Of a DNA stretch of 64,000 bases, positions 30,703-58,622 are shown piece after piece. The stretch is from contig NC_084805.1 in the NCBI RefSeq assembly GCF_963583255.1, positions 6,626,827-6,690,826 on the forward strand, read 5' to 3'. The translations under genes were made by a program, and so were the position numbers. Source of the stretch: Pyrus communis (lineage: Eukaryota > Streptophyta > Magnoliopsida > Rosales > Rosaceae). A model generated the notes under the pieces. The model saw nothing but the letters and a program-made list of their open reading frames with translations. It did not search any database and was not told the origin of the DNA. Positions within the stretch are counted from its first letter, which is position 1, and each line of letters opens with the position of its first letter.

Positions 30703-31775
30703 ATTAAATTACACTAAATTATTTTAGTTTTCGGTCACACTACAATTTCATACTTCATTTTTTAAATAGTAAAATGTTATATATCAACTTACGAAATCCT
30801 TGTAATGTCAAACCTTTGTAACAAAACATGTTAATTAAGTTGTTAAGTAATGACATGACAGCAATGAGCTTCACATTTGTGCTGATGTGTCACCTATCTT
30901 ATGCCACATGGCCAAACAATTCATAAAAAAAATATTTTAATTATAAAGATTTTTTTGTCAAAATTATTAAAGATAATTCACTTCATTTAAAAAATTGAAA
31001 AAAAAAACAAACAAACAAACCCACATCCTAAGTTCCTGCTCCACACCCACCCACATTCCTTCCCCCTCACCCCTCTCTCTCCCTTCCTCCTTGTTAGCCG
31101 TACCCATTTCTCTCTCTAGCAACCTGCATTTCCATGGACGCTGGTGGGAGGCGTGGTGGTCCTCGATGGAATTGAGGTCCTTGTAATTTCGTTAAAACTT
31201 GCGAGAGTTAGGGTTTTTTGAGGATGAGATTTGAATGGGATTTTGACTTTTTGCGATGGTAGGGATTAAGGTTGTTCGAGAGGGTAGTGTCGACAAGCTT
31301 GAGATCGAGTCAGTCGCCGAGAGGGTGGGGTCGATGAGCTCATGGTCGGATTGGTCGCTGAGGGTTTTAAGGATAAAAGGGTCTGGAAGACATCAAAGAC
31401 AACGTGTTGAATGGCAGCGAGGACCCTGGGATCGAAAAGGTGAGGCATCTGGCTAAGGATGGGGGCTGATCGGAAGGATGGGCGTCGAATTTTGCAGAGG
31501 TCGGGAGGGAAACAGTAAAAATAGGGAAAAAGAAAAAACAAGGGAAAAGGAAGGGAAGAAAAGGAAAAAGAATTGTTTGAATGTCAATCCACGTGTCAAT
31601 CCGTAATTCTCACACTTGCCACATCAACAGTTAACAAATTAAATTGACAGAAAATTGATTGAAGTCCGACATTGTTACAAATTCGTAAAATAAGGTATGA
31701 CATTGCAATGTTTAAAAGATGAGGTGCGAGATTGTGGTACAACTCAAAGTTGAGGTAACTTAGTGTAATTTACCC
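30703..31775. mobile_element. Mutator-type non-autonomous element, about 1.07 kb
   Basis: The right tip reads inward GGGTAAATTACACTAAG and the left tip AATTAAATTACACTAAA. After the tips both arms carry the same ordered motifs in inverse orientation (a TACAATTTCATAC-type block, an AATGTCA block and a CCACATGG/GCCACATC block). Flanks resemble a degraded 9-bp duplication (AAAGAATAA and AAAAAATAA). The interior (31020-31560) is GC-richer, with an open minus-strand frame (31541-31266) that I do not recognise. It may be captured host sequence. It belongs to the same broad family as the elements at 31965-51231 and 55662-58891. Confidence 0.65.
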
Positions 31776-31930
31776 AAAAAATAATTGACTCGGAATTAGA
31801 ATACAAAATTAAATGGGAACGGGTACTTTTATACCCAAAGTTAAAGTAACTTAGTGTAATTTACCCAAAAAATAATTGACTCCGAATTAAAATACAGAAC
31901 TGAATAGGGTACTTTTATACTCAAAGTTGA
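31755..31930. repeat. Tandem duplication of about 88 bp at the edge of the Mutator-type element
   Basis: Two diverged units share GTAACTTAGTGTAATTTACC, an AAAATAATTGACTC block and TACTTTTATAC. The first unit overlaps the terminal inverted repeat, so the tip of the element has been duplicated. Confidence 0.75.
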
Positions 31931-32019
31931 AGTACGATATTGTTCTTGATAGACTAACAAATAAGAGTAAATTACATTTCACCCCCTCAGGTTTGGGATC
32001 GATTGCAACCTCATATAAT

Positions 32020-33519
32020 CAGTGGCAAAGCTACGTGAGGGCGAGGAGTGGCGGCCGCCACTCCCCTCGTCGGAAAAACAAGGCTGGAGCGCTAGCCAGC
32101 CCCTCCCCTCCTACTGCTGCTATTCTTCGTCTCCTCCAGTGCAACGGTGCTATCTGGTTTTGCTCTGCGCGCAGCAGAGCTGCATCAATTTTTTTTCAAA
32201 ACACCCAGGCCAAAACGACGTCGTTTTGGTCCTGGTTAAAAAAATTTTAAAAAGTAGAACGAAACGGTGCCATTTCGTATAAGTTGGGAAAAAAATAGGG
32301 GTGTGCTATCCACACACCCTTTTTTTACTTCTCACACATCATTTGTTAATTTATATCTGTTGATCTTCTTCAATTCATCCGATCTAATGGTCGAAAATTA
32401 GAAAGGCGTGTGAAAAGCAAAAAAACCATACCCCAGAAAATATAAATATATAGGGTGGGACTGCGTGTCCCCCATTCCATAACTTCCATTCAATCTCTCT
32501 CTCTGCTCTTTTTCATTCTCCAATCAAAGCAAAAGGTGCAGCAACACTGCCCCCCAATTCCAGTAGGTAAATTTTTTAATTCCTAAATTTATAATCCTAA
32601 ATCTAATTAATTATTTAATACGAATTTTGTTTAATTGGCATAGAATCATATGGTGATACACTAATATGATTATTGATATGAAATTATGAAATTATTTTTA
32701 GGATGAAAATTAAAATTTGAAATCTTGATTATTGATTAATTAACTGAATTATTACATAATGTATATTCATATGATTAGTTGACTTGAATATTTATTTATT
32801 GAATAATTTGTATGCTTATTGGTATTGAATAATTGAATTCTTGGTTGGATTAGTTATTATGCATATTAGTATATTAGTATAGTCTACTCTAGGATTAAAA
32901 GTCTATGATTTTTTTTTTCTTTCCATTTTACAGTTACATAATGGAACAATACTATAAGAAACAATGCTTAAATCCTCATTCAAACACTTCAAGTAGTCCT
33001 TCTTCTTCAAATATTCCAAGTAGTCCTCCTCCTCCTTCAAATATTCCAAGAAGTCATCATTCGAATATTCCGAGTAGTCCACCTCCCCCTTCAAATATTG
33101 AGAGGAATTGGTGATCTTGCAAAGGAGTTGGTGAAGACCAGAAGGTGTGCAAGCTATATGTTAGTGTATAAGCTTCTTTCATTGGCTTTGGTGTTACTGG
33201 TTGCAACCGCTTCGATGAAGAGAGCTTTTTCTACTATGAAGATTGTGAAAACATCATTGCTTAACAAAATGGGAGATCAATGGTTGAGTGATAGCATGCT
33301 TGTTTACATTGAAAGAGATGTATTTGCTTTCATTGATAATGAGCCTATTATGTGACGTTTTCATGATATGAAACCTCGCCGGCAACAATTGTAATTTGTT
33401 TGTATTGATAAATTATGGAACACATTACTATATAAAATGATTTGGTTGTTGCTACTCTTTTGAAGCTTGCAATCTTTTAACTTCGCCCCTCCCCCCATCA
33501 ATTCCTGGCTTCGTCACTG
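32020..33519 (+). mobile_element. hAT element 1, internally deleted, left end of the macrotransposon
   Basis: The tips are CAGTGGCAAAGC and (reading inward from the right) CAGTGACGAAGCCAGG, of the family whose transposases resemble zinc-finger MYM-type (TTF-type) proteins. It is 1.5 kb long against 3.45 kb for element 2. A near-palindrome with GACGTC at its centre lies at 32205-32235 and is shared with element 2 (47454-47484). Confidence 0.85.
32941..33391 (+). pseudogene. Deleted hAT transposase: N-terminus fused to the C-terminal dimerisation region
   Basis: The frame starts at the ATG at 32941 with MEQYYKK, the family's usual opening, followed by Ser/Pro repeats built on SNIPSSPPPP. At about 33094-33100 it jumps to sequence that in element 2 lies near 50315. 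It then runs into the hAT C-terminal dimerisation region (33098-33355: KRAFSTMKIVKTSLLNKMGD, then ERDVFAFI). A stop and a frame change at the junction prevent one continuous product. About 2 kb of coding sequence, including the catalytic region, is missing. Confidence 0.8.
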
Positions 33520-35114
33520 GTTATACTCATCTAGGTTTGGTTGGTAGTATTTTAAACGTATTTTCATATGTCCATAAGTATTTTTTTTTTATAGTGTATT
33601 CCAAAAAGCAGTTAGAAGAACAACCATCATTCTACCATCGCCACCACTAGACATCAATGAGTTGGAAATGATTTAAATATACACACTTTGAATTCTTTAT
33701 TAAAAATCTACAGGTGCTTTAGTGTTTTTTTAAGAAGCATTTGGCAGATTATTCTCTTAAAACCACTTGTATAAAGTACAGTTCTTCTACAAAATTTTAT
33801 CAAATGCAATCATCATTTTTGGTTGCAGAAAACGCATTTAACCATTTTAAAAACAATCTCAAGCATGTTCCTTTATAGTTCAAGCAATATGGGGTCATCA
33901 TACTTTCAGTTACATTCTTATGAAATACTTCAATTTTAATATCTAATATTCTAATGGACAGAGCATTGAGTTTCTACTTATGTATCCTAGGTTCGAAACT
34001 CCCCTCACGCCTAAATTATCGCAATTTCAACAAAAATGTTTATGAGCACAAGTCATGTAATTCAAATAGGGTTACATAAATGATAATATTTTTGCTGTTG
34101 TCCCGAATTTAAACACAAGAACCCTCGGGGAAGTTTATTGTTCAAAAAGTTCCTTTGCATATTCGCGGCAAGTGTGAAAGAATAACTTTCCCAGCGACCA
34201 AAAAGTCCCTTTGCACTTGGAATTCCATGTTTTCACCGTCAGAGTAGGTGGGTTGATGACGCTGAGATTCTCCAAAGGCAAGACCGACCAATACCCAACC
34301 AAATCTGAAAGTCTAAACGCAACCGCGTGCGAACACTCTAGTAGTCTAATCCAACTACTTTCCAATATTTACTTTTTTAGAAACTTTTTTACAACGATCA
34401 CTTAAAATGAAATTGTTATAAAAAAAACCTCCGATAGTTAATTTTATAGAATCACTACCATATGAGTGATCAACTCCACGACATTATTCCCAATTACCTA
34501 AATACAAGTATTGTCAATGAGCACAACACCAGTTTACCCACTCCTTAAACAAAAAAATTGCCAAACTGAAATCTAGAGATGGTCACCATATCTTGCCACA
34601 TCAACAAACTAACAGAAAATCTAACGAAACTAGATGGCATGGATCAAGTTAATATTTTAGGTCAATTTTAAGGACGAAATTGATTGATTTTCAAATTAAT
34701 GGACTACAATGATGAGTTAGGTCAATTTTAGAGTCATATGTGATAAAAACTCAAAATAAAGTAAAAACCTCATGTACTTACGGTTGAGAATGAATCTCAC
34801 ATTGATAGGAGGAATGATCTTGCATGGGCTTATAAGTAAGTTGGGTTAATGACAATATTGCCTATTGGTTTTATAGTGGAATCCCAATTTTCTTCTCTTA
34901 CCTCGATGTCCCTATCTCTCATTAGAAACGACTTCACCCAAGTACACCTTTATCCAGTTCAAGGGTTTGCTAAAATCGTTTCATCAAGTAAAGGTTTTAG
35001 CTGACACAATTTGACCTTATTCGATAAAAAAATTTAATCAAGGCAGAAGCTGCGAGTTCCAGCCCCGTCAATCCCAAGAGAATATAATACTAATAGCTAG
35101 TTTGAAGTTGTTGT
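33520..35114. other. AT-rich DNA between hAT element 1 and a solo LTR
   Basis: No gene is recognised. 33560-33860 resembles the AAGCACTT-type dispersed repeats also seen at 40640-40860 and 44380-44790. 34560-34740 has CCACATCAACAAACTAACAG, reminiscent of the inner arms of the Mutator-type elements, but no ends can be set. Confidence 0.4.
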
Positions 35115-35632
35115 TGACACACCTCGACCCAGAAAGTCCACTTGGACCCTGAATCGAGCTGTGCTGGCCGACACCTGGAAGGTGACGAAGCCATAAAATG
35201 TGATAGTGTACAAAAAGTGAATAAATTTGAATCTAAAAGTGTCTAAGTACCAGAGTGCGCTACGAGTGGGAGCGAACCCATTTCACACGCGATGTCAGAG
35301 CATAAGTAAGGTACAGTAGTATGGGTAAGAATCATACCCTCAAAAATATCCATTAATACTAAGATTCACCACAGATTGTTGTCGATACAAACTCAGAAGC
35401 TAAAACCTGGAGGGCACCAAACAGAAGGTGTGAGTAAGCAATAAAACCAAGCTTCCCAAAGTTATTACCTCTCTAAAAGTAATGCCCTAATGTAAAACCC
35501 GTATCGTTTTCCATAAGACAATACAACATATATACATATATCCAAACCATACTCAGAAATGACCAAAACCACGGTTTGCCATTAACTCCACCATACATTA
35601 ATAAGTAGGCCAAATGAACTAAATCAATACAA

Positions 35633-35905
35633 AGTGATATATCAGTCAGAGTCATCTAAAATGACATGTACAACTTATCCGTATCTTATCAATCATGGCT
35701 AGCATATAAGTCGGAGTCACCTCTAGTGACCTGTACGACTTATCCATATCTTATCAATCCTGGCTAGCATATAAGTCGGAGTCACCTCTAGTGACCTGTA
35801 CGACTTATCCATATCTCATCAATCCTGACTAGCATATAAGTCGGAGTCACCTATAGTGACCTATACGACTTATCCATATCTCATCAATCCTGGCTAGCAT
35901 ATAGC
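35633..35905 (-). repeat. Four tandem 65-66 bp units within the solo LTR
   Basis: Units carry, on the plus strand, GCATATAAGTCGGAGTCACC followed by GTGACCTGTACGACTTATCC, then a TATCTYATCAATCC spacer. Each unit contains one copy of the small hairpin discussed in the findings. The first unit is the most diverged. Confidence 0.9.
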
Positions 35906-37983
35906 TCAATAAGTATACCTGCACACGAGTCGGAACTACCTAAAGTGGTCTGTACGACAGGACTGGGTGTAAATAAATAAGCTCAAGTGCTACGATCACG
36001 TGAAGACTGGGCGAATAATCGCGGGTCACCTACGAGTCGGAACCACCTAAAGTGGTCTGTACGACAGGTTTGTGCACCTACCTTGAATCCAAGGTGAGCA
36101 TAAGGTGCGGGAGGTGAACATCACGTGAAAGACTGTGCCCTGGCCACGGGCGGGAGCACTAACACCGGGGTGCAGGTTTATGAGCTCTCAATGCATCTCA
36201 ATATAACATGTGCAACTCATGGCAACCAATACGACAGTATCGAAGTTGCCTAACACATAACTGTAGTCATGCTATAACACAATCGATTCAACTAGTACCA
36301 TAAACTCACCTGAACTTACCTGGGTGTCCTGAGTTCACCTTTGCACTTGAAAGCATTCCCAATAATTATATGCAAGTAATATACATATTGATATACTATG
36401 ATGCAATCTAATACTCAACCATGTCGTAGCATGTTCAATTATAAACAATACAGTGAGAAGTGTACAATCAATAACGCATTACTCCCAAACTACTTATTTT
36501 CAGGGATAATTATCCATGACGACCCAATTAACACTAATTTAACTAACTAATTCATAAAACTAAAACTTGTCTTTACCAATTTCCTTCGCCTTACTCAATT
36601 TCCCAAGCAAGGCTTTGGTCTCAAATATTTTATGGCTGCATCTAATGTCTCGTTAGACTGCCTACGTACCCTAAATAGGGATCAAGCCATTCGTAGTTCA
36701 TATCGTACTTCAAGCATTCACAATAATTATATATGAAAGTAATATACCTAATCAATTTAAAAGTGTCGATAGAACTCTCAATAATATGTACGGTAAAAAG
36801 GAAAAGATCCACTTACCTGGAGTCCACGCTATGATTCTCTAGCGCACACATCGAGGCGTCCTAAATGATTGGTCCCTGTGACCAATTATCAAATCACATC
36901 TCAGAACTCTTATCCGAAGAGTACGTAATTCACATAAAACACAACCTCAACGACATTCTAAAATAGTTTGATACCCATTGACCACAAGTCAACCGTCGAT
37001 CAAAGATCGACAGTAGGGTTTACAACCCTGTATAACTTGACCCGGAAGATCCGCATATCAGATTTCCAATCCGCAACTCCCAACGATCCACAATATGTTT
37101 CTAGAAAAACATACTAGAATTTCATTACGATCCAACGGTCAGATCTCCGCCAATTGCCTAAAACAAGTGGCCATGAACATTTATTTTACTAACTTACAAA
37201 TCCAATTCAGGAAGATCCGTAAGTCGGATTCCCGATCTGTAAATTCCTATAATCTTTAAATATTACGTATTATAATATATCCCATTTTGGTGACGATCCA
37301 ACGGTAGGGTAATCGATTCACATTTTTATCAAGTAACGTATCGTAACGAATTTAGGTTCCAACTATCAACCTACGTCATTCAAATGACAAAACTGAATTC
37401 AAGACATTTGACATAGCCTAAAAATAGCATTGGCGGCCCACTGGCCACGCGCCGCCACGGGTGTCGGCCGCCCCGACTCGCCGGAAAATCCAACTATTTC
37501 CAAAAATTCTCAAACTTCACAGAAATGAAGATCTCAGTGAGTGGAGCAACTTTCATACCTGCCACGAAGTCCAAAAGTGGATGGAAGATGGTCAATTTTG
37601 CCCACGAAGCCGGCGGATGCCTAAAACTTCCCGACGTCGATTCGTCGTCCACGGTGGTCCAACGGGGTCAAGGTTGGTTGGGTTTTTCTCCTGGGATGAT
37701 GGGCTACAAAGCCCAAGTGGTGGCATCGGCCATCGCTTTGCCGATTTGCCGGAAAATCGAAAAGGGTGGCCGGAGCACCATTGATTTTGGTCAACTTTCG
37801 TGGCCTCAAACCGCTCCATACCATGGTTAATCAAGGTGGTTCTTGGGTGGGTTTTGTAGAGGGGAATGAGAGCTTCAAGATGGTGGTGGTGGCATCGAAA
37901 AACTCCACCGGAGTTGGCCGGAATCGGCCTTGGAAGATGGTCTCGTGGTGGCGCGGGTATGGGTGCACGGGAAGCTCTCTTCC

Positions 37984-37986
<3 letters not shown>

Positions 37987-38022
<36 letters not shown>

Positions 38023-38050
38023 TTCTTCTTCTTCTTCTTCTTCTTCTTTC
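37987..38050. repeat. Poly-T and (CTT)n low-complexity tract
   Basis: A T run of about 35 bases is followed by CTT repeats. It gives rise to spurious Phe-rich and Lys-rich frames on both strands, none of them a gene. Confidence 0.95.
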
Positions 38051-38355
38051 TTTCCTCCCTCCGTTTCTGATTTTGGGTTTCCCCCACAAAGTGGGGGGTT
38101 TAATTTAAATACACACTAAACCTTGAATAACCAATTTCGAACGTCCGTAACTATATCGTTATAATCCGGACGCGCAAACGGCTTTCGCCTATACGTTCGT
38201 ACCAAAGAATACTACGAGGATATGCTTAAAGAATAAGTCCCACATCTCTCAAGTCGATGGTCAACGGAAGTCAAAGTCCTTGCCTCTAGGGCAATTTAGT
38301 AAATTCACGCTTTTAAAATAAAATAAAAACGTAAAATTTGGAACGGATTGTCACA

Positions 38356-39278
38356 TTGTGCTTTTTTCAAAATTTCTTCTGGTATGCTATGATAATAAAT
38401 AACTATGAAAAAAAAGTAAGTGTTTGATATACTATAGTAATAAAAGTGTTTTTAGCTAAAAAAAAAAAAGGTTAGAGATGGGGGTAGGATTGTCGATATG
38501 AAAGTTGCATTAATTGGTATTTGTTCACCCGCCTCCAATAGAAAAAATAAAATTAAAAAAAAAAAAGAAAATGAAAAGCATGTCTAGAGTTACTTCTGCT
38601 TTCTGCTGTTTTGGATATAATTTTGAAAAAAAAAAACATAATTAAGAGTCCACCTTTTTTAAAAAGATTAAGTAACCACAAACTAAACCCTAAGGAGGAG
38701 TGCACAATGATTCTTTGGGAACAATAATAACAAACTCCCATGTTTTTATTCCAATGAGAATATAAGGTCTTAACGTTGAATCTAAATACAAGAATTTGGT
38801 TAAACATTTAGGGAGATCAAATATTTTAAGTTAAATTTGTAAATTAAATATTATGGTTGTCAATTGTTGAATTATTAATTAAATGTCAATTAACTTGCTT
38901 GTTTCTTATTACTAACATATAATTTAACTTACAAATTTAATTTAAAATTTTAATGTTCCTAGCATTATCTTTATTTATATATCAGCTATCAAAGCTCGAT
39001 TTCTTCTTGGAGTTAATAGTCATTAACCTTTTTTAGCCATTAAATTGAAGAAATAAACTGAGAAAGACAAGTTTAAAATTAAATAAAAAGACCAACAGAG
39101 AATGGTAAAAAGTTATGAATTGTGGAAAGAGAAATTCTAAGAAAACTTATTAAAAAATAGAACTATTTATAGATTATCCATTACATTATGTTTTTAACAT
39201 AATATTTTTTAATATTAGAATAAAAATTAACGTAAAGAAGGGTCAGAAAATTTCACTTTTAAGAGTGTTTTCTTAAAG
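38356..39278. other. AT-rich 5' flank of the glucanase gene
   Basis: There is no gene. Poly-A and poly-T tracts are frequent. The part next to 39279 is the distal promoter of the beta-1,3-glucanase gene. Confidence 0.4.
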
Positions 39279-39320
39279 TATTTGGCATACGTCAACGAAT
39301 ATTTGGCATACGTCAACGAG
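39279..39320. promoter_or_regulatory. Two tandem 21-bp units in the glucanase promoter
   Basis: TATTTGGCATACGTCAACGA is repeated directly with one base of spacing difference at the end, about 195-235 bp before the ATG. On the minus strand each unit reads CGTTGACGTATGCC and so contains a TGACG core (TGA/bZIP type) overlapping a TTGAC core (W-box-like). Pathogen-induced glucanases are often controlled by such cores. Use here is inference. Confidence 0.5.
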
Positions 39321-39513
39321 AGGACTGAGAGACAGGTGGGGTCCCATCGCACGTGAGCACTTGAGTTCAGTGTCACCTTGCTTACTTTCTTACCGTTACC
39401 CTCAACTTGTTTTTTAGGGGTCTGAAGTCCGTCGTCTTCCGCACTCTGCACAAAAACAGCACACAGCTTCTCACCAGTATCCATTCTGTCGACACACTTC
39501 ATCGTCATCGTCC

Positions 39514-42500
39514 ATGGCGTCGTCGCTTTCGCACTTCCCCATCCTACTTGTCTTCTTCTTATTCACCGCTTTCCTCTCTGCAGGTACGTAATTACTTCTA
39601 GTTTCCCGGAAAATAAAGGAAAAAGTGTCACTTTCCTAAGAAAAATATAAAAATTTGTTTGCGTAATGAATTGATGAGAGCACAGTTATTAGCACTGCTC
39701 GAATTCCAAGTAACTTTGCCTTACTTACCTCATCTCGTAAGTAGGGAAAAACCCCACTGAAACGATTTGCTTTGATTGCAGAATCACAGTCCTTCATCGG
39801 CGTCAACTACGGCCAGGTCGCTGACAACCTCCCGCCGGCCTCCGACACCGCTAAACTCCTCCAGTCCACCGCCATCAAGCGCGTCCGTCTCTTTGGCGCC
39901 GACCCGGCCATCATCAAGGCCCTCGCCGGCTCCAGCATCGCTATCGCCATTGGCGCCGCGAACGGCGACCTCCCGGCCCTTGCATCCGATCCCAACGCGG
40001 CGGCGCAGTGGGTGAATTCCAACGTCCTCCCCTTCTACCCCGCCAGTAAAATCGACCTCATCAATGTCGGCAACGAGGTCCTCCTATCCAACGACCAGGG
40101 CCTCATCTCCCAGCTCCTTCCCGCCATGCGAAATGTCCAATCTGCCCTCTTTGCCGCGTCTCTAGGCGGAAAGGTCCGGGTCTCGACGGTGCACTCCATG
40201 GCCGTTTTGGCCCAGTCCGACCCGCCATCTTCCGGTCGGTTCAACCCGGGATTCCAGGACGTTCTCAAAGGACTTCTCGCCTTCCAGAGGGACAATGGAT
40301 CACCGTTTGCGGTCAACCCGTACCCATTTTTTGCTTACCAGAGCGACCCGAGGCCCGAAACACTGGCGTTTTGCTTATTCCAACCCAACGCGGGACGAGT
40401 CGACTCGGGGAGCGGAATCAAGTACATGAACATATTCGATGCTCAGGTGAGCGTGTTTTACACTATAGTGGGCCGGATTTGGGCTTTTTATAAAGTGGAT
40501 CTAGGCCCAGTTGAAAAATTGACCTGTTGGTCAACCGTCAACTGATTAGAATTTGCGTTATACGACGACTCACACGTTAGTATTTAAATCATGAGTCCAC
40601 GACATTGACATAAGAGTTTAGAACTAATGGTTTTTTTGGTAATTAGCGTTCGCTTTGCGATTTGTTTGAGAAGCACTTATGCACATAAGCACTTTTGTTA
40701 GAAGCTAAAATCAATAGAAGGGTTTCATGTACGTGCTTCTATGGAAAGCACAGATAGTTTTAAAAGTACTTTTATTATTTAGATGAGTTTTTTGTTATCT
40801 AAAAGACGTCGGTTGTTGTAGCCATTTCTAAATGCACTTCCAACCAAACACTTGGCAAATATACACCCTGCATGTGTTTAGAGTCAAGAGTAGATTAGAG
40901 AAAATTAGACAACGTGGAGTGTGAGGATTAGTTGAAAAAGAAGATGAAAGAAAATGTAGAATAAAGCAATTAATATAATATTACTATATCTTTAACTTTT
41001 AGGTCTTTTACTTGAACATCTACGAGATGTCTAATTATAAACATAAAATTTAAATTTAACAGCCTATGTTGCACTTTGGCCTTTTTTTGGTTTTTCACCC
41101 AATATGTCAAATTAAATTATTATTTTATTACATTAACCTATTATAATAAATGTTTTAAAACAATAAAATGCATTTTATAATCAATTAAAAAAAAATTGAA
41201 GTTGCTATCAATTTTGGTAGCAGAGGTGTGGGCTGTCAATTCATGTCATGTCACATCAGATTTGACTTTTTGATTTGAATACATTGTTGTTGCCTTTTTT
41301 TAATATTAGTGTTGATTTGGATATTTTGACATCTCATTTGGAAATACTCTTTGCTTAATAAAAAGGATGGATAATAAGGTTTAGGTGTAGGAAATGAGGG
41401 TTTTTGAAAACCCCAATTTCAACGGTCATTTAATTAGCATCATCCATATTACTCTTGTATTATTGTCCTTTCCTTTATCAAGGAAATGATGGGATCATTG
41501 AAATTACCTTGTATATGCAATTGATGCATGGTGACAATGTGACAGGCTGGCTAGTGGCCCATCACAATAATTTTAGATGAGGCCATGATTTCTATTGGCT
41601 TTGGATTCAGTACAACGTATTTGAAAAAAACCTAGACAAATTTTGTTGTTTCATAGAACCAAAATTTAATTTGGGACCACCATATAAAAGTATAAACCTC
41701 ATATTTCTTACTATAGGAGAAAATGTTAGCGAAACTTTAGTAGCAATGGGTTTTTTTCCCCGCAGATCCTTGAGATAGCATTCGAATCTTTTGCGGTCAG
41801 ATGATGCTGTAAGACCTCAATCTTTTACCATTGTATCGCAATATCATAGGTCATACCCATGTGAAAGAATTGGAAAGAAAATTGGAAAATGAAATCTAGT
41901 TTTGAAGTATTTTCCTTTTGTTATCGTTAATCGAACGGAGTTTTTTTCTCTGTAGCTTAGTAAATGCATAACTTGTTTGAACTATGCACGTTGTTTTCTT
42001 TTCTTGCAATGACAATTTTAATGACAAGCTAACTAATTAGAGAGTTCCAATGATTTAACCCTTATGCTTTTGAAGTCATTGATTGATGCAGTAATATAAA
42101 TGATGAAGTTTTACCATCTCTAGGTTGATGCCGTGCGGTCAGCCTTGAATGTAATTGGATTCAAGGACATTGACATTTTGATCGCTGAGACTGGATGGCC
42201 ATACCATGGAGATAGCAACGAAGTTGGAACTAGTGTGGAGAATGCAAGGGCATATAATGGCAATTTGATTGCACACCTTAGATCCATGGTTGGGACTCCG
42301 TTGATGCCTGGAAAATCTGTGGAGACTTATATCTTCGCGCTCTATGATGAGGATTTGAAACCTGGTCCAGCCTCTGAGCGATCCTTTGGTTTGTTCAAGC
42401 TTGATCTAACTGCGACATATGAAGTTGGTCTCACAAATAGTAGCCAGGTGACATATTTAAAACCTTCTAGCAAAATGTTCTCTTACCTCATCACTTTTAT

Positions 42501-43332
42501 GTGTTATATTGTTGACTGCAAATCTAGATAATTCGTTATATGGTCTGTTCAATACATATGAGAACATAATATGTCCTGTATCTGGCCGAACCTTATAATG
42601 CCTAATATTCTATGCTTTATAATACGCATGATTATTTATAACCCTTGGATTTCTATCCTTCAGACTCCATCAACACCAATGGTGTCTCCTTCACCCAAGC
42701 CTACTTCAGCACAGTGGTGTGTGCCCAAATCCGGCATTTCTGATGCTCAATTGCAGGCAAATCTTGACTATGCTTGCGACCATGGTATTGATTGCAGCGC
42801 AATCCAACCAGGAAGCGATTGTTTCGACCCAAACACTGTTGCATCGCACGCTGCCTATGCCATGAATCTGTATTATCATACTGTTGGCACAGTTCCTCTG
42901 AATTGCGATTTCTCACAAACAGCGATGCTCACATCCTCAAATCCCAGTAAGTTTTCTTTAACACGAGCACATATCGAAATGGCCTATGTTTTCCATGATG
43001 AGGACACACTTAACATAAAAGGGTGATTTACTTTCTGGGATAATAATTCATAAAGTGACCAATTAGAAACGTAAAAGTGTATAATCTTTTGACTTTTGTG
43101 GTGATAACGATTCTCTTAATAATCCAACTCCTTTTGTGAATGATTGCACTACTAATTGTGGCATTTTTCTTTTCACACATTTTATACCGGTGAAAAAATG
43201 GAACATCTCCAAAACCAGCATGACTACCTATGAAAAAATGTCTACTTGATTTGTTTCGGAACTCTTGCTAATTAAGTATGTGAATTGATTGCAGGTTATA
43301 ATGCTTGCAGTTACACTGGTGGAAGTACATGA
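39514..43332 (+). CDS. Glucan endo-1,3-beta-glucosidase (GH17) with X8/CBM43 domain
   Basis: Five exons, 39514-39583, 39782-40446, 42124-42447, 42664-42946 and 43295-43332, all with GT-AG borders and consistent phases, encode 459 residues. A hydrophobic signal peptide (about 1-26) precedes the GH17 barrel, which opens with IGVNYGQVADNLPP (29-42). The proton donor is Glu122 in VGNEVL and the nucleophile Glu267 in ETGWP. A Pro/Ser linker (about 354-370) leads to the X8 domain (372-455) with six cysteines, which binds callose or glucan. The protein ends right after X8 with TGGST and has no hydrophobic tail, so a GPI anchor is unlikely and secretion to the wall is expected. Closest in layout to Arabidopsis glucan endo-1,3-beta-glucosidase 7. 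It hydrolyses beta-1,3-glucan such as callose. The gene lies wholly inside the putative macrotransposon and shows no disabling change. Confidence 0.95.
40447..42123 (+). other. Large intron 2 of the glucanase gene
   Basis: At 1677 bp this intron is much longer than the other three (198, 216 and 348 bp). Part of it (40640-40860) contains AAGCACTT-type sequence shared with dispersed repeats at 44380-44790, so it has probably grown by a small transposon insertion. No clean ends are visible. Confidence 0.6.
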
Positions 43333-45412
43333 CTACCTGTGGAAGCAGGGAAAGTTAATATTATACCGAATAACAGATTCGTGAAGGGTTAGAAATCAAT
43401 TGGATACAAGGAATAAGGTGTTGGTGTGCTTTTTTGTTGTTTTTAATTTATATATGTAACCGTATAATTGTAAAGGTTCCTAGTTTTATTTGGGATATAT
43501 ATTAACTGTAAGAACTCTACCATAAATGGGAATGTGAATGAACTAGTTATTTCTCCAGATATTTATTCCTAAACCTTGGTAAGAAGGTTTGTTTTCACTT
43601 ATATATTTCGTACAAAAGTGGAAATTTTGTGGGGCTTGTACCACTGTTCGACTCTCGGTATTTTCCTCTCTAGGCCTTATTTCGATTACAAATTTACGAG
43701 AATCTTCGAGTATTGATTGGATTGAGTTAGAGCTTTGTTCATGTTGAAGTTGAAGACTGCATCTGACTTTCGCAAACAATGTGGCTGGTGAAATCTTTGC
43801 GGGCGCTTTCTTGAACTAGAAGTTGCCTAGTGGTAATGTTTTCCGGCCGCATTGCTTACCTCTAACCGATAATTATTTAGTGGTATTTAAACTTTACTTT
43901 GTTGGAGGAGATCATGAGCTGAATTTCATAGAGAACAATCTTTTTCCTTGCTGAACAAGAAAGAACCACACGACATGCAAATGAAACTTCAATTCCTGAT
44001 CCCAGAGTTATACTGGCATCGTTTATGCGCTTGAGTGAACACGTCAACCGTTTTTAACATCTTTAAGCGACTGTCAGCTACCACAACTACAAAATTTTAC
44101 CTTCCTATTCAACCAAAATGATTGTGTGGCTATGCGCGCGCTCTCCCTCTCTCCAATCATTTTTAACGAGAGTGGGCAACATTTTTGTTATTGTTCGATT
44201 GATGGGCACCTGGCATTGTCAGCAGCAACGATAGCCCAAGTAGCAATAGGAACTAGATTCCAACCTTTGATGGACATATCATATTTGCTTTTGCATTGTG
44301 AAGCAATTGCTACTTTGCTATGAAACATGGGATGGGCCAGGGAAGTGGAGTATATATATTTTTTAATGCCTTACATCAAAATATATTTCGTTGAAAACTA
44401 TTTTTAAAATAACTGAAAGTGTTTTTATTAAAAATATTTTTAAAACCACTTTGTAGTAAAAATTTAAGTGATTCTGGAAAAACAGTCAAGTGTTTTTTGC
44501 AAGAAGCACATATCTAATGCTTCTATAAAAAAGCACTTTAAGTGTTTAAAAAAAAAAAAAAAACATATCTGATGCTTATTCTAAAATCTATTTTACCAAA
44601 AGCACCTTAAATCATTTTAAAAGAACTTCCAAATGAACCATGCAAGTGTTTCTTTGAAAGCGCTACTATAACCCAGAAACACTCAAACTTATTTTTACTA
44701 AACGTAGTAATAAAATGATGTTAGTTATCAAAACGTACTTTCAACCATTACAGAAGCAATCACAAACACGCTATAAGCAATTACTAACTAACTAGGAAGA
44801 AAATTGTAAAGTTCTCTTGTTGACCTCACCATCCTTCAACCAAAAGGTAGAAATGAAAATTGTACATAGACAATTGATTCAATTACACTTTGTTCATGTT
44901 TGGTATATGGGATTGGATTAGATTGAATAACTTACTAAATTCAAGCTACGTTGAAGGATGAAATTATGGAGTCCGACTTCCAAAAGAAGTTAGTCATGAA
45001 AGAAACTTATATTCACATTCAACCATTTTTCTTATGATAAATGATATGCTAATATACCCTAAATTTAACTAAACTAGGGGAATGAGGGATAGTTTGAACT
45101 CAAAAGGAGTAGGTTGAAGAGGAAGATTCAAACCGACACTTACAAAATTACTAATTGTCACGCTAAACATTTCTTAACTTGACAGGTTAACAATGCCTAT
45201 GCTTGAATTTTTTTTTTCCCTATCTTATAAATGATATCATTATTGGGGTAAAATCCTCAATTGTTAGGAAACCCGCATCAAGATGTATAAGTATTATTAT
45301 TTTCAGTTACTGCAGTAAATCGCCATTCCACCTATGGTTGAAAATTGGTTCATCTATATATACTTATTAACTGTGGGCAACATTATTGATCTAGTTCGTA
45401 GATGGATTTAGT

Positions 45413-45447
<35 letters not shown>

Positions 45448-45522
45448 AAAAAAAGCCCACTTTATGAACTGCTTTGTGAACATATATTTAATACAACAAT
45501 TGTGAGGACAATGACCAAGCAA
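43333..45522. other. Glucanase 3' region and AT-rich DNA with MITE-like repeat
   Basis: The first few hundred bases include the 3' untranslated region. 44380-44790 is a repeat with many AAGCACTT/AAGTGCTTT-like motifs in both orientations, suggesting a palindromic MITE whose ends I cannot fix. A run of about 27 A follows at 45419-45445. No gene is visible. Confidence 0.45.
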
Positions 45523-45594
45523 TCCATTGTCGTCCAGCGGTTAGGATATCTGGCTTTCACCCAGGAGACCCGGGTTCGATTCCCGGCAATGGAA
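45523..45594 (+). tRNA. tRNA-Glu (anticodon TTC)
   Basis: A 72-nt gene folds as a complete cloverleaf. The acceptor pairs TCCATTG with CAATGGA and is followed by discriminator A. The D arm contains the A box (GTCCAGCGGTTAGGAT). The anticodon loop is CTTTCAC with anticodon TTC. The T arm contains the B box GGTTCGATTCC. There is no intron. A CTTTTT terminator for RNA polymerase III follows at once. The sequence is typical of plant nuclear tRNA-Glu, and no stem mismatch is seen. It sits within the putative macrotransposon. Confidence 0.97.
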
Positions 45595-45799
45595 CTTTTT
45601 GGCATTTTATTTAATTTTAATTTTACAGTTACACTTATATGCTGCTATATTTTATCTTTTTTTGGGAAAAGACGTATATGATCTGTGATCTGTGATCTAT
45701 TTGGGATGATTTTTATGTTTATTTTTCCTTTTATACAAGTGATACTCCAGGTTTTAAATGCAAAAATAAATACTCTAAACAAGTATTGTACTATCATAT

Positions 45800-46924
45800 T
45801 GGTAACCCTAAAAACTACCAAGCCTACGTGGTGCGCAGACCAAGTAACTAATAAGCTAACTACGTCATTCGGTTGAATGCGGGGCGTGCCAACTCGTCGG
45901 CCGAGGAGTAAAGTTTGTTGATGTTGTGTTGAGCGTGTTGCTGACTTCTTTATCTTGCGACTGTGGCCGAGGAAGGAACCAATCTCGACCTTTGGATTCT
46001 CGAGCCTAAAGACAAGACTGTTAGTTCTGCGAAGTTCACAAATCATTGGCGCCGAATTCGGTCACCGTGATTATATTTGTAAGAGTATAAACACGTCGAA
46101 TCGACACCAGACTGTACGAACACAAGTATTCAAAGGTGATGTATGTCTTGATGGTGAATGTGGTTCGGCCATCATAATGCCGAACTCTGAAACTCACTTG
46201 TGAATATCCAATCATAAAATCACTCGGCGTTCAATGCGCCAAATGTCATAACTCGTAACACCTTACTTTGCCGAGAAGGCTAATAATATGACCTCTACCA
46301 ATAAGGATTCGGAAACCCTTCTCGACCGAGACTTGGATAGGTAACCAGTTGGCCTCAACGCAATGCTGTTTATCCAAACTGAAGGTGAGCCTCTGCCGGC
46401 TAATTCTACAGCGACAGTACTGTTTATCCAAACTAAAGGTATTTGTCGGTTGCTTTCATAATGCTGTTTATCCAAACTGAAGGTGTGTCGGCGGGGAAAA
46501 GAAAATAAAAATCTCAAGATGTTTGAGAGGTTTTGCGCAGAGCAATTGTGTGTTGAATTGAGACCCTTGAATTGTTGCATGATGTCTTGTATTTATAGCA
46601 CCAATTCCTTCTTGAGATTGAATTAAACTCATATCTGGATTGAGAGTTCTTGTTTCGTTCCAACTTTGCTTCAACCAACCCTACTCCCATTAGGACTTTG
46701 AACTCACCCATTTTTTAGGCTTTATTCATTGTTGGTCGAGAATCCTAATTGCACTAGGACTTCCTCGACCCATTTGCTTATTTGAACTACTCTTTCTTGT
46801 AATAGGACTCGACCATCCCTGCTGATTGGCCCGGAATCACCAGACAGCCCATAATATTTTTGACACAGCGTGGGCTGAGAACAAACCTACACTTGGCCCA
46901 ACAATTTTATTTTGGGCCCAAACA
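45800..46924 (-). mobile_element. Solo LTR, 1125 bp, with 5-bp target duplication CATAT
   Basis: Read on the minus strand it starts TGTTTGGGCCC (46924) and ends GGGTTACCA (45800). CATAT flanks it at 45795-45799 and 46925-46929. A TATAAATA promoter lies on the minus strand at 46597-46590. No coding region adjoins it, so it is a solo LTR. The superfamily (gypsy or copia) cannot be told without internal sequence. Short frames within it are not genes. Confidence 0.85.
46364..46485. repeat. Three spaced copies of a 22-bp motif in the solo LTR
   Basis: CTGTTTATCCAAACTGAAGG occurs with at most one change near 46366, 46420 and 46463, each followed by unrelated spacer. In the LTR this lies just downstream of the inferred start site. 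Confidence 0.8.
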
Positions 46925-47078
46925 CATATTGAATGAATTGAATTCAATGGAACAAATATTATACTATCATATCGAATGAATCCATACAGTTATTCAACTC
47001 CCAAACCCATGCTGCTGCCACCACTCATGCCCCTTCTCCCCACTCCCCAAGCACCATAACAACCCCACTCTTTGATCC

Positions 47079-47232
47079 TTTTTTTTTTTTTTTGAACAAA
47101 AGATATTATATCTATTAAGGAACTAAGAAGTGGAGCAATAATGTGGTTCGAATACGTCTTTGATAAAAATCAAACCTAAAAGTTCTCACTTACAAGTGAA
47201 AAATACGACTAGACTGAAATATTAAGTGACAT
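47079..47232 (-). mobile_element. tRNA-derived SINE, minus-strand copy
   Basis: Read on the minus strand, it has a B-box-like AGGTTTGATTT, a shared ATTCGAACCACATTATTGCT stretch also present in the copy at 16785-16942, and an A-rich tail (the T run 47079-47093). It lies directly beside the left end of hAT element 2. Confidence 0.5.
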
Positions 47233-47272
47233 CTCTCCTAACTTCTTATACCAATTTTATTTCACTTTTTTT

Positions 47273-50200
47273 CAAGGGCGAAGCTACATAGGAACGAAAG
47301 GGGGCGTATGCCCCTCCGCTCGTCGAAAAACAAGGGCAAAAGCAACGCTTAAACCCTTCTGGTTCGGCTGGAAATTGGGATGCACCGCGCCATGGTGGTT
47401 CTGAAACCAGAAACCTGCGCGCGTAGGTTTTTTTTTATTTTTTATTTTAAAATCCAGGCCAAAATGATGTCGTTTTGGGCCTGGTATAATAAAATTAAAT
47501 TTTTGGGTAAACGACGTCATTTTGGGGGATTATCAAATAAAAAATGATAATAAACGGGGGACCACTGGTCCTCATCCCCATCCCAATCCCACCCCGTTTC
47601 AATTAAACCCCACCCACTCTTTTCCCAGATAACCAATCCTATCCCCCCACCATTACCCCCTTTCTCCCCCACACGACAAAACCCCTAAGGCCCCATATTT
47701 CATTTTTCAAAATTGTTCCAAATCCTAGGAATACAAAGCAGCCATCTCGTTCTATTGGTTGGCCACCAAGACCAAGCTCCATAGTCCAAACGCAACTCGC
47801 CATGCATTCCACACCAGCCGCTCCAATTAAGGTCAAATTTTAATTTTAATTTATTTCAAACCCTAATTGATTATTGAATACAATTTTTTGTTTAATTGAT
47901 ATAGGATTATAGGATAATACATTATATGGTTATTGATTATAGATTATTCATATGGATACTATGATTATTGATTTGTTTGTTTTTTTTTTTTTTGAAGTAT
48001 ATAAAAATTGAATACTATGTTTTTATTTATTTTTTATTTTTTATGAATACTATGAAAATTGAATTCTTGATTATTCATATGATTGTTGGTACCAATTAAT
48101 TAAATTCGTAGTCTACTTCAGGATTAAGAGTCTAAGATATATATTTTTTTCTTTCGTTATACAGTTACGTAATGGAACGATACTATAAGAAATAGTGCTT
48201 GAATCCTTCTCCAAATATTCTGGATAGTTCTCCTCTTCCTTCAAATATTCCAGGTAGTCCTCCTCCACCTTCAAATATTCCAAGTAGGGGCTCCTTCGAG
48301 TATTCTGGGTAGTGCACAACAAAGTAAGGTTATTGAGTTGGATAAAATATTAGCTAATCTTCTTGTAGACCCTGGATTGAGACATCAAATGCTTGATTAT
48401 CCACTCAAGTATTGCGAAGCAATTCGTAGATACCCCCTCCAAAATGAACCTTGTCAACCTAACTCTCACATCATGCCAAGGAAAGCTAGCGACAATCGAT
48501 GTTTTATCACAAGTTGGTTTGATAATTTTAAGTGGTTGGAGTATAGTATAATAAAAGATGTTGCATTTTGCCGTTATTGCTATCTTTTTAAATGTGATTT
48601 TGATAAAGCGGGTAGTAGTGGAAGTGATGTCTTCACTGAAAAAGGGTTTACAAATTGGAGGAAAGGACTCGAAAATTTTCGAGTCCATGAAAGAGGTGTT
48701 TGAAGTCTTCATAATAAAGCTATGCAACAAGCTAGAGACTTGATGACACAAAAACAACACATTGGAACATTTGTGATCAAGCAAATTGATGAAGCTCGCG
48801 TTAATTATCACACTTTACTGAGTGGAGCACTTGATTGCACAAGATGATTGTTGTGACAAGGTTTTGCTTTTTGTGAGCACAATCTGTGAAATCGAGCAAT
48901 AGGGGTAATTATATGGAGCTTATGCAATTTCTTGCCGATCATAATGAGAAAGTTAGGAAGATTGTGTTTGAGAATGCTCCCAAGAATCTCAAGTATACTT
49001 CTTCTGATATTCAAAAGGATCTTGTTCATGCTTGTGCTATTGAAACTATTAATGCAATCACTAAAGATATGGAAGGTACATTTTTTTTTCTCTCTCTTGG
49101 TTGATGGATCACGTGATGCTTCGACTAAAAAGCAAATGGCGGTGGTATTGCATTATGTGAACAAAAAAGGAGAAGCAATTGAAAAGTTTTTGGGTGTTCA
49201 ACATGTCACCTCTACAACTAGTAGCTCGCTTCAAGATGCCATTGAGAGATTGTTTGCTACAACAAATTTGAGTATGTCCATGTTATGAGGACAAGACTAT
49301 GATGGAGCTAGTAATATAAGAGGTGAATTAAATGGTCTTAAAACAAAAATTTTGAACAAATACCCTCAAGCATTTTATATTTATTGTTTTGCACACCAAC
49401 TCCAACTAGCTCTTGTATTCGTGGCAAAGGAAAATGAGGATGTTGCCAATTTTTTCATCAATGCTAGTAGTTTGGTTAATCTTATTGGATCATCATGTAA
49501 GCGTCGCGATGCATTTAGAGAGAAACAACATGAACAAATTCACTTGATCTTAGTAATCTTGAAACGGGTAAAGGGTTAAATTAAGAAAGTAGTCTCATGC
49601 GTCCATGTGATACACGGTGGAACTCGCATTATGGTACTATAGTTAGTATTATTGTTATGTTTGAAGCCGTGGTGGAGGTGGTTGAATGGATTAAAAGTGA
49701 TTGCAACCAAGATAATCTCGGTGAAGCAACTAGGTTATTCAAAGACATACAAACTTTGGATTTTGCGTTTCACCTTTTCTTGATGAGACTTATATTGAGA
49801 ATTACAAATGAGTTATCACAAGCATTGCAAAAGACAGATCAAGATATTGTGAATGCAATGACGTTAGTGGAAGTATGCAAGCAAAGACTACAATCCTTGA
49901 GAGATGATGACTTTGAGGACTTGTTTCATGATGTAGAAAAGTTTTGTGAGGAGCATGATATTATCGTTCATAACATGGAGGATATGCATTTCGTACCAGG
50001 AAAATCGCGGCACAAAGCTCCAAAAATCACAAACGTCCATTACTATCGTGTGGACCTCAATTTTCAAGTCCTTGATATGCAACTAAAGGAATTAAATGAT
50101 CGCTTCAATGAGGTAAACACCGAGTTGCTTCTTTGTATGGCATGTTTGAGTCCGGTGAATAATTTTGCATCTTTTGACAAAGCAAAAATAGTTCGTTTAG

Positions 50201-50725
50201 CCCAACTTTATTCTCAAGATTTTGATTGTATGGACCTCATGAATCTTCCAATTCAACTTGACAATTACATTCATGATATGAAGATGCATAGTGAGTTTTC
50301 ACCATTGAAAGGAATTAGTGATCTTGCAAAGAGTTAGTGAAGACCGGAAGGTGTGAAAGCTATATGTTAGTGTATAAGCTTCTTACATTGGCTTTGGTAT
50401 TACCGGTTGCAACCGCTTCGGTGGAGAGAGCTTTTTTTGCTATGAAGATTGTGAAAACACCATTGCGTAACAAAATGGGAGATCAATGGTTGAGTGATAG
50501 CATGATTGTTTACATTGAGAGAGATGTATATGCTTTTATTGATAATGAGCCTATTATGCGACGTTTTCATGACATGAAACCTCGCCGGTAACAATTGTAA
50601 TTTGTTTGTATTGATTAATTATGAAAGACATTACTATATAAAAAAATTTAGTTGTTGCTATTTTTCTTTAACCTTGCACTCTTTTAAGTTCGCCCCTCCC
50701 CCCGAGAATCCTGGCTTCACCACTG
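47273..50725 (+). mobile_element. hAT element 2, near full-length, right end of the macrotransposon
   Basis: The left tip is decayed (CAAGGGCGAAGCTACA instead of CAGTGGCGAAGCC). The right tip, reading inward, is CAGTGGTGAAGCCAGGA. It encloses a broken transposase gene of the zinc-finger MYM-type/TTF class. The sequence left of it (CTTTTTTT) bears no relation to the perfect duplication CATATAAT on its right. Confidence 0.85.
48171..50591 (+). pseudogene. hAT transposase, TTF-type zinc finger class, broken
   Basis: The N-terminus (ATG at 48171, MERYYKK) is followed at once by a stop and a Ser/Pro region. The TTF-type zinc finger lies at 48338-48703 (SWFDNFKWLEYS, then AFCRYCYLF). The DUF4371-like and RNase-H-fold transposase region spans about 48880-49600, with YCFAHQLQLALV (49384-49420) marking the conserved block around the second catalytic region. 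49597-50337 continues with MRPCDTRWNSHYGT. The C-terminal dimerisation region is at 50337-50591 (VERAFFAMKIVKTPLRNKMG). At least four stops or frameshifts separate the blocks (about 48190, 48703, 49288 and 49579), so the copy is not autonomous. Confidence 0.88.
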
Positions 50726-51240
50726 CATATAATATCTTTAAAATATTTTAATTTCATACATTTACTTATTATTTTATTTCAATTTCATTCATCCGTTAGA
50801 AAATCCGTTAAGTAAATCGTTAAGTGATGACGTGGTAAATATGGAATCTACATTTGTGTTGACGTGGCTACCACATTTGTGCCACATGGAATTTTTTTTT
50901 AATGCATTTAAAAGATAATAATTTACCGTAAAATAATTAATTAAAGAAAAAAAAAACCTAAAACCTATCTTCCCCGACCCACCTTCTTTAATTAATTATT
51001 TTAGGGTAAATTATTATCTTTTAAATGCATACAAAAATTATTTTTTTGCCACGTGCACAAATTTGGCAACCACGTCATCACTTAACGGTTTACTTAATGA
51101 ATTTTCTAATGGATTTATGAAATTAAAATAAAATGATAAGTAAATGTATGAAATTGAAATATTTTAAAAATATTGTATGAGGTTACATTATAATCGATCC
51201 TAAACCTGAGGGGGTAAAATGTAATTTACCCAACAAATAA

Positions 51241-54200
51241 CTAAAACCCCCAGCAAGGCAGCCACCCCACCCACTGACCACGGGCCACTCAACATCGACC
51301 ACCCACCCCCAATCTTCTACATGCCGGCAACATATCCTCCTTTCTATCTCTTTCCTCGTTCTTTCTATCTATATTTGGCCAAGCGGAAGGTAGCCATGAA
51401 TTTTTGCAAAGTATGGCCATCTCAATTCCAAAGCTAATTCAATAAACTGCAAGCAAGATGCAAAAATCAACAAAAAAAAAAAAATCATCAGATGTGTTCC
51501 CAAATGAATGAAACATTATAAATTAAGGTGAAGGTTAGGGACAAAATGACCAGTGGCGGCGCTAGGACTGGGAGGTAGATGACAACCTAGTTGGTGGGTG
51601 ATTGCACACTAGTGAAAGGGTTGTCGTGGTGGTCGCCGGCAATGGGGTGGCTCATTGCTGGGTTTTTGATTTTTTTGTTTGTAAATTTTAATTTTTCTAG
51701 GTAAAATTGAGATTTTAAGAGGAAAAAAAAATTGAATGTGGGGTGTTTTCCGTAGTTTGTGGGGGTGCCAATAAAATTACTCAATAACATAATACTAACG
51801 TGTTAGTAAATCATTTACAATTAAAATACAGAAGTGAAACTCACAACTTTAGAAATTCAATTGGTCATTTTTTTTTTTATCTTTTATGAATCAATTGATC
51901 TTTTAGTACAAGGTAATTTTCATGGGAAAAAAAAAACCCACTCAATCAGGGGAAAAAAAAAAAAAAACAGTAGAACTAATTTGAACTAGGCTGAAAAAAT
52001 CAAATTTTGACCAAAAATCAAGTGAAATAAGTTGTGAATCAAATTGAACGGGTTCGAATCAATTCTACTCACCAATCATTGTGATTAATAACAATGTCAT
52101 CATGCTCTGGTTAGTATGTCACAATGTCATCGTGAATTTATGTCGACTTCGACAACCATTGAGCTAATATTGGCTATAGTAGTTTGGTTCAATTGTCATG
52201 ACTATTTTTCATGCGCAGTTAACTCGAGCTGAAATCAATATTCATGATGTTTGAGTGGTGGGGATGAGTCAAATCGGATAGCATTCCCCACCTAAATTCT
52301 GAAATTATTAATCATATTGTGACAAAAGTCATAATCAAGCTCAATGCAATTGAATTTACATCCAATTTCCCTCTTATTCAGGCTAACATACATATCATTT
52401 GCAGTCACCCACATCACATAAATGCATCTTGCAATTGGGCCTTTGTGGGCTGTATGTATGACTGTCAGTTTTACACTTTTGATTGGTGAAAAATGAATCC
52501 TCGGTAAATTATCCTGATGTTTAGAATCTTTCACCTCAACTCACTGTGCTTCAAATTTAAACCCTTCTCCATCTCTTAGTGCAGATTAGTGTAGATATAT
52601 AAAATAAAAATTATAAAAATGGATCCTCCTGCTAGCCCAAATTGTTCGCCACTTACAAGTGTGCTCCTTTGGGTTTCTAAATTCCAATCACAAATGGGTG
52701 TCCATACATAATTAGCCCATAAAAACGCATAACGCATTTACAGATGCTCTTTTTACCAAGTGGGCCTGCTCCACGTTCCAACAAACAAAGCCTCAAATTT
52801 GTGATGGCTGGCGAGGTTTGCTTTACCTTGTTTGAACCTGACTATGTAGAAGAGGATGCTCCAAATTGGCTAAAGGGTTTAGAAAACAACTCATTGCCTA
52901 CCAAGGGGAATGATAATGAACTTTGGCCTTTGGGCCATTTCACTATGGTATGGTTCAGTGGTTGAAGAGGCTGAAATACTTTTGTGAGTTTTCTTAACAG
53001 GCGGAGGTGTGGACTGCCGTAGTGAAGTCACCAGCTGGTACCAATTATCTTTCTTCAACCGTTCACTCGTGCAAAATGAAGGTGTGGGAGAGAATTTCCA
53101 TCATCGTAGATATCTCTTTCACAGGTCTACATTGTTTCATGAGAGCAATCATAACACAACTAACCAAATATAATTCTTTCACCTTCTATATTTGATGAAG
53201 GTGAGTACTCCACAGTGAATTCTTTCACCGTCTATATTTACTTTTCAAGTTCTCAACCACTATCTATCTATATATGTTACTTTCAATTTCAACTCTTTGG
53301 TAATATAATATGGTGCCATATCAGCACCACCTGAAACCCTACTAGTTGAGAACATCTATTTATGTGCAACTTTTGTTCTTACATATTACTAAACTCCAAA
53401 TTTGGTTCACAGACATACAAATATACTAAACTCCAAGAATACTTGGGAAACAAGTTTGACCTTAAAAGTTTTAAGTCCAAATTCCTTGTACTTTCAAGGT
53501 TGCCGAATAACGTCTTTAACACTAAATCAGTGGCGTGGTCATCTCTATTGCAAGATATAAAATGCTTTGAGATGTGTATTTACAGTTTGATTGGCCGGAT
53601 AACTCCACAATTGAGAGATGTAAAATATGCATTTTAGGGCAGAAAATGAAATGAAAACTTAAATTTATATTCTTTTTTAAATCTTTTGATGATGGGTTTT
53701 TTGTAACTTTGTTTTTTTACATTTTTTTTTGTGGTGGTTCCTGCCACTCCAGTACCGAAAATTAAATGACATCTCAAAACTACATAATTTCTATTAGAGT
53801 ATGATATCTGATTTACTTTTTATGAAAACATAAAAGAAAATGTAAATATAACTCTTGCGTTTCTAATTGGATGGTGCTCCATACACCAAACTCAATCAAA
53901 AAGTTTATACACCAAATAATGTGGCACATTTTACAACTTCTAAACTTTTATTAAAATTATTAATCAAATTCTAACTTAAATTAAACTACAAATTTAATTC
54001 GTTTGAGGCAAAAATTTAGTATGTTTGACGTTATTTTTTCAAATTTGCATCTCCTCGTTGAAGATGCTCTTAAAGCTACTAAATTTGATCACACAATCAA
54101 GAGATTCAAGATAATGACATCTTAATATAGATTCTCGTAGTTGTTCAATCTCCTTTAAAAAATAAAACGGAGAGACATTATTGATTTAGACTTTTAGTCA

Positions 54201-55050: not shown

Positions 55051-55055
55051 ACCTC

Positions 55056-57007: not shown

Positions 57008-57076
<69 letters not shown>

Positions 57077-58030: not shown

Positions 58031-58035
58031 CACTC

Positions 58036-58109
58036 ACTCACCAACTAGAATAAAAAAATTATTATTTATTAATAAATTATTATTTATTAATAAATTATTA
58101 TCTATTTAT

Positions 58110-58141: not shown

Positions 58142-58147
<6 letters not shown>

Positions 58148-58591: not shown

Positions 58592-58622
58592 TAGGAAGAG
58601 GAGATGAGAATGAAGGGACGAA

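Follow-up and report, generated by a model that had tools for sequence, protein, structure and literature searches.

When plant genes are duplicated to dispersed sites, the usual explanations are retroposition, capture of gene fragments or unequal recombination; for complete copies that have introns and lie far from their source, a cause is often not stated. Here we ask how one such gene, encoding a beta-1,3-glucanase, came to lie between the two parts of a split Mutator-type miniature inverted-repeat transposable element (MITE). The gene is situated in the window, the whole stretch of 64,000 nucleotides that was analysed (C3:6626827–6690826); the genome searched comprises 487 Mb in 29 contigs. 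Two hAT transposons flank the gene, and macrotransposition by this pair very probably duplicated a glucanase/tRNA locus into the MITE. The following features (window positions) define the insertion.

31956–31964, no strand: 9-bp duplication AACAAATAA, left of the MITE (direct read)
31965–32019, plus strand: left tip of the Mutator-type MITE (window sequence and family copies)
32012–32019, no strand: left copy of the 8-bp target duplication CATATAAT (direct read)
32020–33519, plus strand: hAT1, 1500 bp, its left end being the left end of the putative macrotransposon
47273–50725, plus strand: hAT2, 3453 bp, with a broken transposase, its right end being the right end of the putative macrotransposon
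50726–51231, plus strand: remainder of the MITE, opening with the second CATATAAT (window sequence and family copies)
51232–51240, no strand: 9-bp duplication AACAAATAA, right of the MITE (direct read)

A first interpretation of this DNA, the sequence-only reading, had described a MITE cut in two, with perfect 9-bp duplications outside its halves and perfect 8-bp duplications around an inserted segment of 18,706 bp. Both pairs are present, AACAAATAA at 31956 and 51232 and CATATAAT at 32012 and 50726, on the outer sides of a segment of exactly that length, and all landmark positions given at the time are correct within two bases. Excising the segment and one CATATAAT leaves a MITE of 553 bp and, as had been claimed, restores its long palindrome, the arms of which run across the junction. 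Random pairs within the window agree at frequencies of 3.85e-5 (8-mers) and 1.3e-5 (9-mers), and the two exact duplications at their predicted places are thus not due to chance. An independent family member on C17 (L040) is continuous through the insertion point. The target MITE has long terminal inverted repeats in addition to the AACAAATAA pair, and 9-bp duplications are characteristic of Mutator-type elements. Its family is large, with at least 119 matches (best 40 of 1,380 candidates scored); six loci found in the MITE search proved to be hAT left ends.

Left of the target MITE, at 31742–31908, are two 76-bp direct repeats (88% identical), each with TGTAATTTACCC and, after it, AAAAAATAA; they resemble MITE tips. 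L040 itself contains two facing MITE arms, at 860–1126 and 1863–2167, with about 0.7 kb between them. Several arm pairs of similar spacing occur among the family matches listed, so that some members may be longer elements sharing these long terminal repeats.

The two hATs are in direct orientation and their outer ends lie at the one CATATAAT target duplication; hAT1 opens the segment with its left end and hAT2 closes it with its right end, as first proposed. hAT1 has short terminal inverted repeats (CAGTGGCAAAGC and ...GCTTCGTCACTG), as does hAT2 (CAAGGGCGAAGC and ...GCTTCACCACTG, the left end being diverged). hAT2 carries the domains Dimer_Tnp_hAT (23.0 bits, cut-off 21.4) and DUF4371 in different frames; both elements belong to the hAT superfamily. 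In hAT1, a 1.5-kb, internally deleted relative of family copies of 3.3–3.5 kb, the dimerisation domain scores 20.9 bits, slightly below the same cut-off of 21.4. The two elements are 90% identical across their last 424 bp; to the left of this part, alignable pieces are mostly 70–83% identical (73% in the first 60 bp). This divergence indicates that they are separate insertions and not mutual copies made in the present event. Their inner flanks, GTTATACT (33520–33527) and CTTTTTTT (47265–47272), are unlike each other, again as first read. Circle integration or tandem duplication of a single hAT was considered and rejected, since the inner flanks differ and the hATs are about 70–90% alike in alignable parts.

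We surveyed the hAT1 family at 19 loci fetched among 38 matches to its left end (best 40 of 370 candidates). At 10 of the 19, the left end has a matching right end, 0.86–1.25 kb or 3.3–3.5 kb away, and the two are enclosed by an 8-bp duplication with 0–2 mismatches. Two loci have duplications with three mismatches, L039 and L028; the L028 pair, at 6.1 kb, is probably a chance match. The scan found no convincing pair of right end and duplication at the remaining 7 of the 19. The family transposes as ordinary hATs with 8-bp duplications.

We searched the genome with the glucanase protein (92 of 174 candidates scored). Among the matches scored, a single one is closely related to the window gene; it is located at C3:6840496–6843688 on the same strand, 174 kb downstream, with exon matches of 93, 85 and 93%. 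Next by score are matches on C15 (72%) and on C8 and C1 (about 41%); a further match on C1 has 69%. Comparison of the 6.84 Mb locus with the DNA between the hATs defines the following features.

33520–47272, plus strand: cargo, 13,753 bp, edge-to-edge homologue of C3:6837151–6846894 (9,744 bp; comparison of loci)
33520–33527, no strand: GTTATACT, original target of hAT1, uninterrupted at C3:6837151
47265–47272, no strand: CTTTTTTT, original target of hAT2, uninterrupted at C3:6846887–6846894
39514–43332, plus strand: glucan endo-1,3-beta-glucosidase gene with an intact frame of 459 amino acids
39514–39583, 39782–40446, 42124–42447, 42664–42946 and 43295–43332, plus strand: exons of the glucanase gene
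45523–45595, plus strand: tRNA-Glu (TTC), shared with the 6.84 Mb copy

Homology begins at 33520, the first base past hAT1, and stops at 47272, the last base ahead of hAT2. Two stretches of the 6.84 Mb locus were compared, with the introns and exon 5 of its gene copy outside the comparison. Inward of the edges, the two loci are free of mismatches for 23 bases on the left and 32 bases on the right; outward, agreement is at chance level, with the hAT ends and with the MITE alike. With a slash marking the edge, the 6.84 Mb locus reads ...ATCTGTCG/GTTATACT... on the left and ...CTTTTTTT/TACGAGG... on the right. There is no hAT, no doubled target and no footprint at either edge, and the DNA beyond both is different. 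Since this copy has neither hAT nor doubled target, GTTATACT and CTTTTTTT are the hATs' own targets, and the cargo corresponds, in the compared stretches, to one donor interval between the two target sites. The sequence-only reading had suggested a search for a donor site where both inner flanks have partner duplications on the outer sides of the hATs. The flanks were indeed found, as uninterrupted host sequence exactly at the homology edges; the partner duplications were not seen there, and the locus reads, in the one haplotype examined, as the state before the hATs. A local donor search of C3:6.57–6.75 Mb returned only repeats apart from the window itself.

These edges bear on two other explanations. 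A segmental duplication by another route, with the hATs inserting at its edges afterwards, has no specific support and demands two insertions exactly at the breakpoints without duplications of their own, plus a coincidental CATATAAT pair in the MITE; it is strongly disfavoured, to the point of being barely credible. Composite insertion, a reversed-ends transposition with re-replication as described in excerpts on maize Ac (PMC4270019), would likewise yield transposon termini around a segmental duplication, create 8-bp duplications and keep the donor copy. However, the composite insertions in these excerpts contain an internal junction where two re-replicated flanks meet, whereas the cargo is collinear edge to edge in the compared stretches, and the 6.84 Mb copy has no hAT. 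We thus regard this route as very unlikely.

Seven non-coding or mostly non-coding pieces differ between the window and the 6.84 Mb locus by a Kimura two-parameter distance (K2P) of 0.046–0.160, hence this is not one locus assembled twice. An assembly error fusing two loci at hAT repeats might be suspected, as hAT ends are common repeats and the assembly sequence alone was examined. Nevertheless, the independent 8-bp and 9-bp duplications and the MITE palindrome close exactly, making such an error highly improbable.

Which of the two copies is older was addressed by synteny. The right flank of the 6.84 Mb locus (1.6 kb, 1.4–3.0 kb past the edge) has its best partner at C2:28150032–28151596 (minus strand, 79%), matches to glucanase exons 3 and 4 are found at C2:28158740–28159590 (minus strand, 74–79%), and a gene at C3:6722080, judged by eye to encode an LRR receptor-like protein, matches C2:28302788 (minus strand, 90%). 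The anchors form a collinear inverted block with the glucanase at home at 6.84 Mb; C2 and C3 are partners of the apple-tribe genome doubling. Among the 92 of 174 candidates scored, no C2 glucanase match lies near or beyond 28.3 Mb, where a counterpart of the window would be expected. The synteny therefore indicates that the 6.84 Mb locus is the older one and the window copy derived, and it contradicts the idea that the gene originally resided in the window. The 6.84 Mb copy is not the whole-genome-duplication partner of the window copy either, as a separate, more diverged exon set exists on C2. In 443 residues, the pear-hybrid protein P0006 and the protein P0005 have 6 and 5 differences from the 6.84 Mb copy, and 20 and 19 from the window copy. 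The C2 glucanase copy has probably decayed, judging from its 74–79% identity and the lack of exon 2 among the matches listed. Stops in the C2 match were discarded as proof of decay, because the window's own exon-3 match, extended beyond the exon, likewise has stops.

The window copy is thus derived, and its breakpoints coincide with the outer ends of a pair of separate hATs, which allows macrotransposition to be traced at base resolution. All four breakpoints are accounted for by a single transposition that employs hAT1 at its left end and hAT2 at its right end: at the source, the breakpoints are the targets of the two hATs, and at the destination they are one hAT-type target duplication. On one haplotype, the gene would have come to lie between two hATs of like orientation, hAT1 with GTTATACT as its target and hAT2 with CTTTTTTT. 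An autonomous relative would have supplied transposase in trans, and the left end of hAT1 would have been paired with the right end of hAT2. The whole interval would then have been excised and reinserted into the MITE. The surviving source has neither hATs nor footprints, and another haplotype is therefore the likeliest donor. Later segregation or recombination with a haplotype that never carried the hATs at 6.84 Mb would have united copy and original on one chromosome, the product being a dispersed duplication of a complete gene and its flanks. The earlier proposal that glucanase, tRNA-Glu and associated repeats were moved here in one event is thus supported with respect to macrotransposition, but the locus was copied rather than moved, the original being retained. 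Nor need all the associated repeats have been cargo, as at least two are absent from the old copy.

35113–38355, no strand: 3.24-kb repeat within the cargo, missing from the 6.84 Mb copy
45800–46978, no strand: 1.18-kb insertion, with TATTGTACTATCATAT and TATTATACTATCATAT on its two sides as nearly identical copies of about 16 bp, missing from the 6.84 Mb copy

Their absence from the old copy suggests that both may have been inserted after the transposition, and the mobile segment would have measured about 14.3 kb at the time of the move if both window-only repeats came later. Towards its left, the first repeat contains a run of about four 65-bp tandem units (35639–35898), and pieces related to it occur on the opposite strand at about 22.5–23.7 kb and at 57.1–57.4 kb of the window.

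The same outer and inner junctions are predicted by a two-step recombination, in which a single hAT first inserted into the MITE, doubling CATATAAT, and was then converted by a double crossover or gene conversion with a haplotype carrying hAT1, gene and hAT2. The common right end of the two hATs (424 bp, 90% identical) would suit such an exchange. Yet this route requires a prior single hAT and two exchanges between diverged elements (mostly 70–83%), whereas macrotransposition is one event, and we consider the two-step route improbable.

Several observations weigh against macrotransposition. The left end of hAT2 differs from the family terminus (CAAGG versus CAGTG). The two flanks of hAT1 itself mismatch at 3 of 8 bases, as do those of L039; because three mismatches occur within the family, the hAT1 flanks alone have no power to exclude ordinary decay. 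Synteny with C2 is anchored on just one side of the window. Neither a hAT-bearing 6.84 Mb haplotype nor an empty donor was seen in the one haplotype examined. Finally, a 41-bp stretch 2.7 kb to the right of the old copy's edge is 83% like hAT2; given its position away from the edge, it is probably an unrelated fragment.

The coding sequences were compared over 443 codons (exons 1–4, first four codons of exon 3 excluded). Window and 6.84 Mb glucanases have 22 residue differences, with synonymous (Ks) and nonsynonymous (Ka) divergences of 0.065 and 0.022; the pairwise Ka/Ks of 0.34 alone is no proof of selection on the window copy. With Prunus as the outgroup, 14 of 20 polarisable residue changes (residues 15–401) fall on the window branch, indicating that the relocated copy evolves faster; despite this, it is still open across 459 codons. 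By our own arithmetic, the 8-bp and 9-bp duplications each have about an even chance of remaining intact at such a distance, and their perfection is therefore compatible with an old event.

The mechanism of macrotransposition is already known, mainly from maize genetics, and the macrotransposon cases described in the excerpts consulted are from maize (PMC9910405, PMC3260210, PMC4270019, PMC3744419, PMC7202869). There, a Ds–Ac pair mobilised up to 100 kb (PMC3260210), and macrotransposons of 10.3 and 28 kb lie near p2, excision of the 28-kb one being shown by a modified 8-bp footprint (PMC9910405). As in the window, these excerpts report paired hATs cut at their outer ends, an 8-bp duplication and transport of the DNA between. 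They concern active lines, however, whereas the present case is natural and old, involves an open-frame gene in a pear-like genome, and has both source and target read. Another case is the compound Ds-l4-483 of maize B73 (7.3 kb), in which, according to an excerpt of PMC3260210, a complete Ds-like element is followed by extraneous and transcribed sequence and then by a truncated second copy. It too is natural and carries an additional copy of the target duplication, but its second element duplicates the first in truncated form, while the elements in the window clearly differ, and the window cargo is a single contiguous locus that includes a complete gene and has an identified source. A mention in PMC3744419 states that directly oriented termini of maize Ac/Ds transpose in transgenic rice; ends of nearby hATs are likewise used, but the system is engineered and the outcome another. 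In the copying of aphid CYP6CY3, a hAT similarly adjoins the breakpoint of a relocated gene copy; recombination or alternative transposition was left open in the excerpt (PMC7202869), whereas the window segment has hAT termini on both sides, placed at a target duplication.

A natural gene-duplicating macrotransposition with both source and target identified is unusual. In the present case the source, the carrier and the target are all legible at single-base level, which yields a concrete search rule: homology that ends on each side at the inner end of a hAT, the two hATs having the same orientation, a target duplication outside them, and the original locus, uninterrupted, in another place. Scanning assemblies for this signature could measure how frequently paired hATs spread genes. 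It is conceivable, though rather doubtful, that paired-hAT macrotransposition is a regular and uncounted route by which whole genes with their promoters are duplicated to linked sites in this lineage, and that the copy restored a second working glucanase after decay of the C2 partner and is under selection.

The glucanase and the tRNA gene had both been recognised as cargo from the outset, correctly in each case. The former comprises five exons encoding 459 amino acids with the domains GH17 and X8 in an open frame; it is 96% identical over its full length to a Pyrus ussuriensis x P. communis protein (P0006) and to P0005, and 86% identical to a Prunus protein, which suggests that the DNA belongs to a pear-like member of the apple tribe. 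The GRP gene that had been placed next to the MITE was not recovered, as a Pfam scan of six frames of 51240–61000 gave no match (61001–64000 lie outside the scan). Elsewhere in the window, an open reading frame of 234 amino acids at 13260–13964 (minus strand) matches the Pfam family Viral movement protein (PF01107, E 1.1e-16) and is possibly a remnant of an endogenous pararetrovirus or retroelement.

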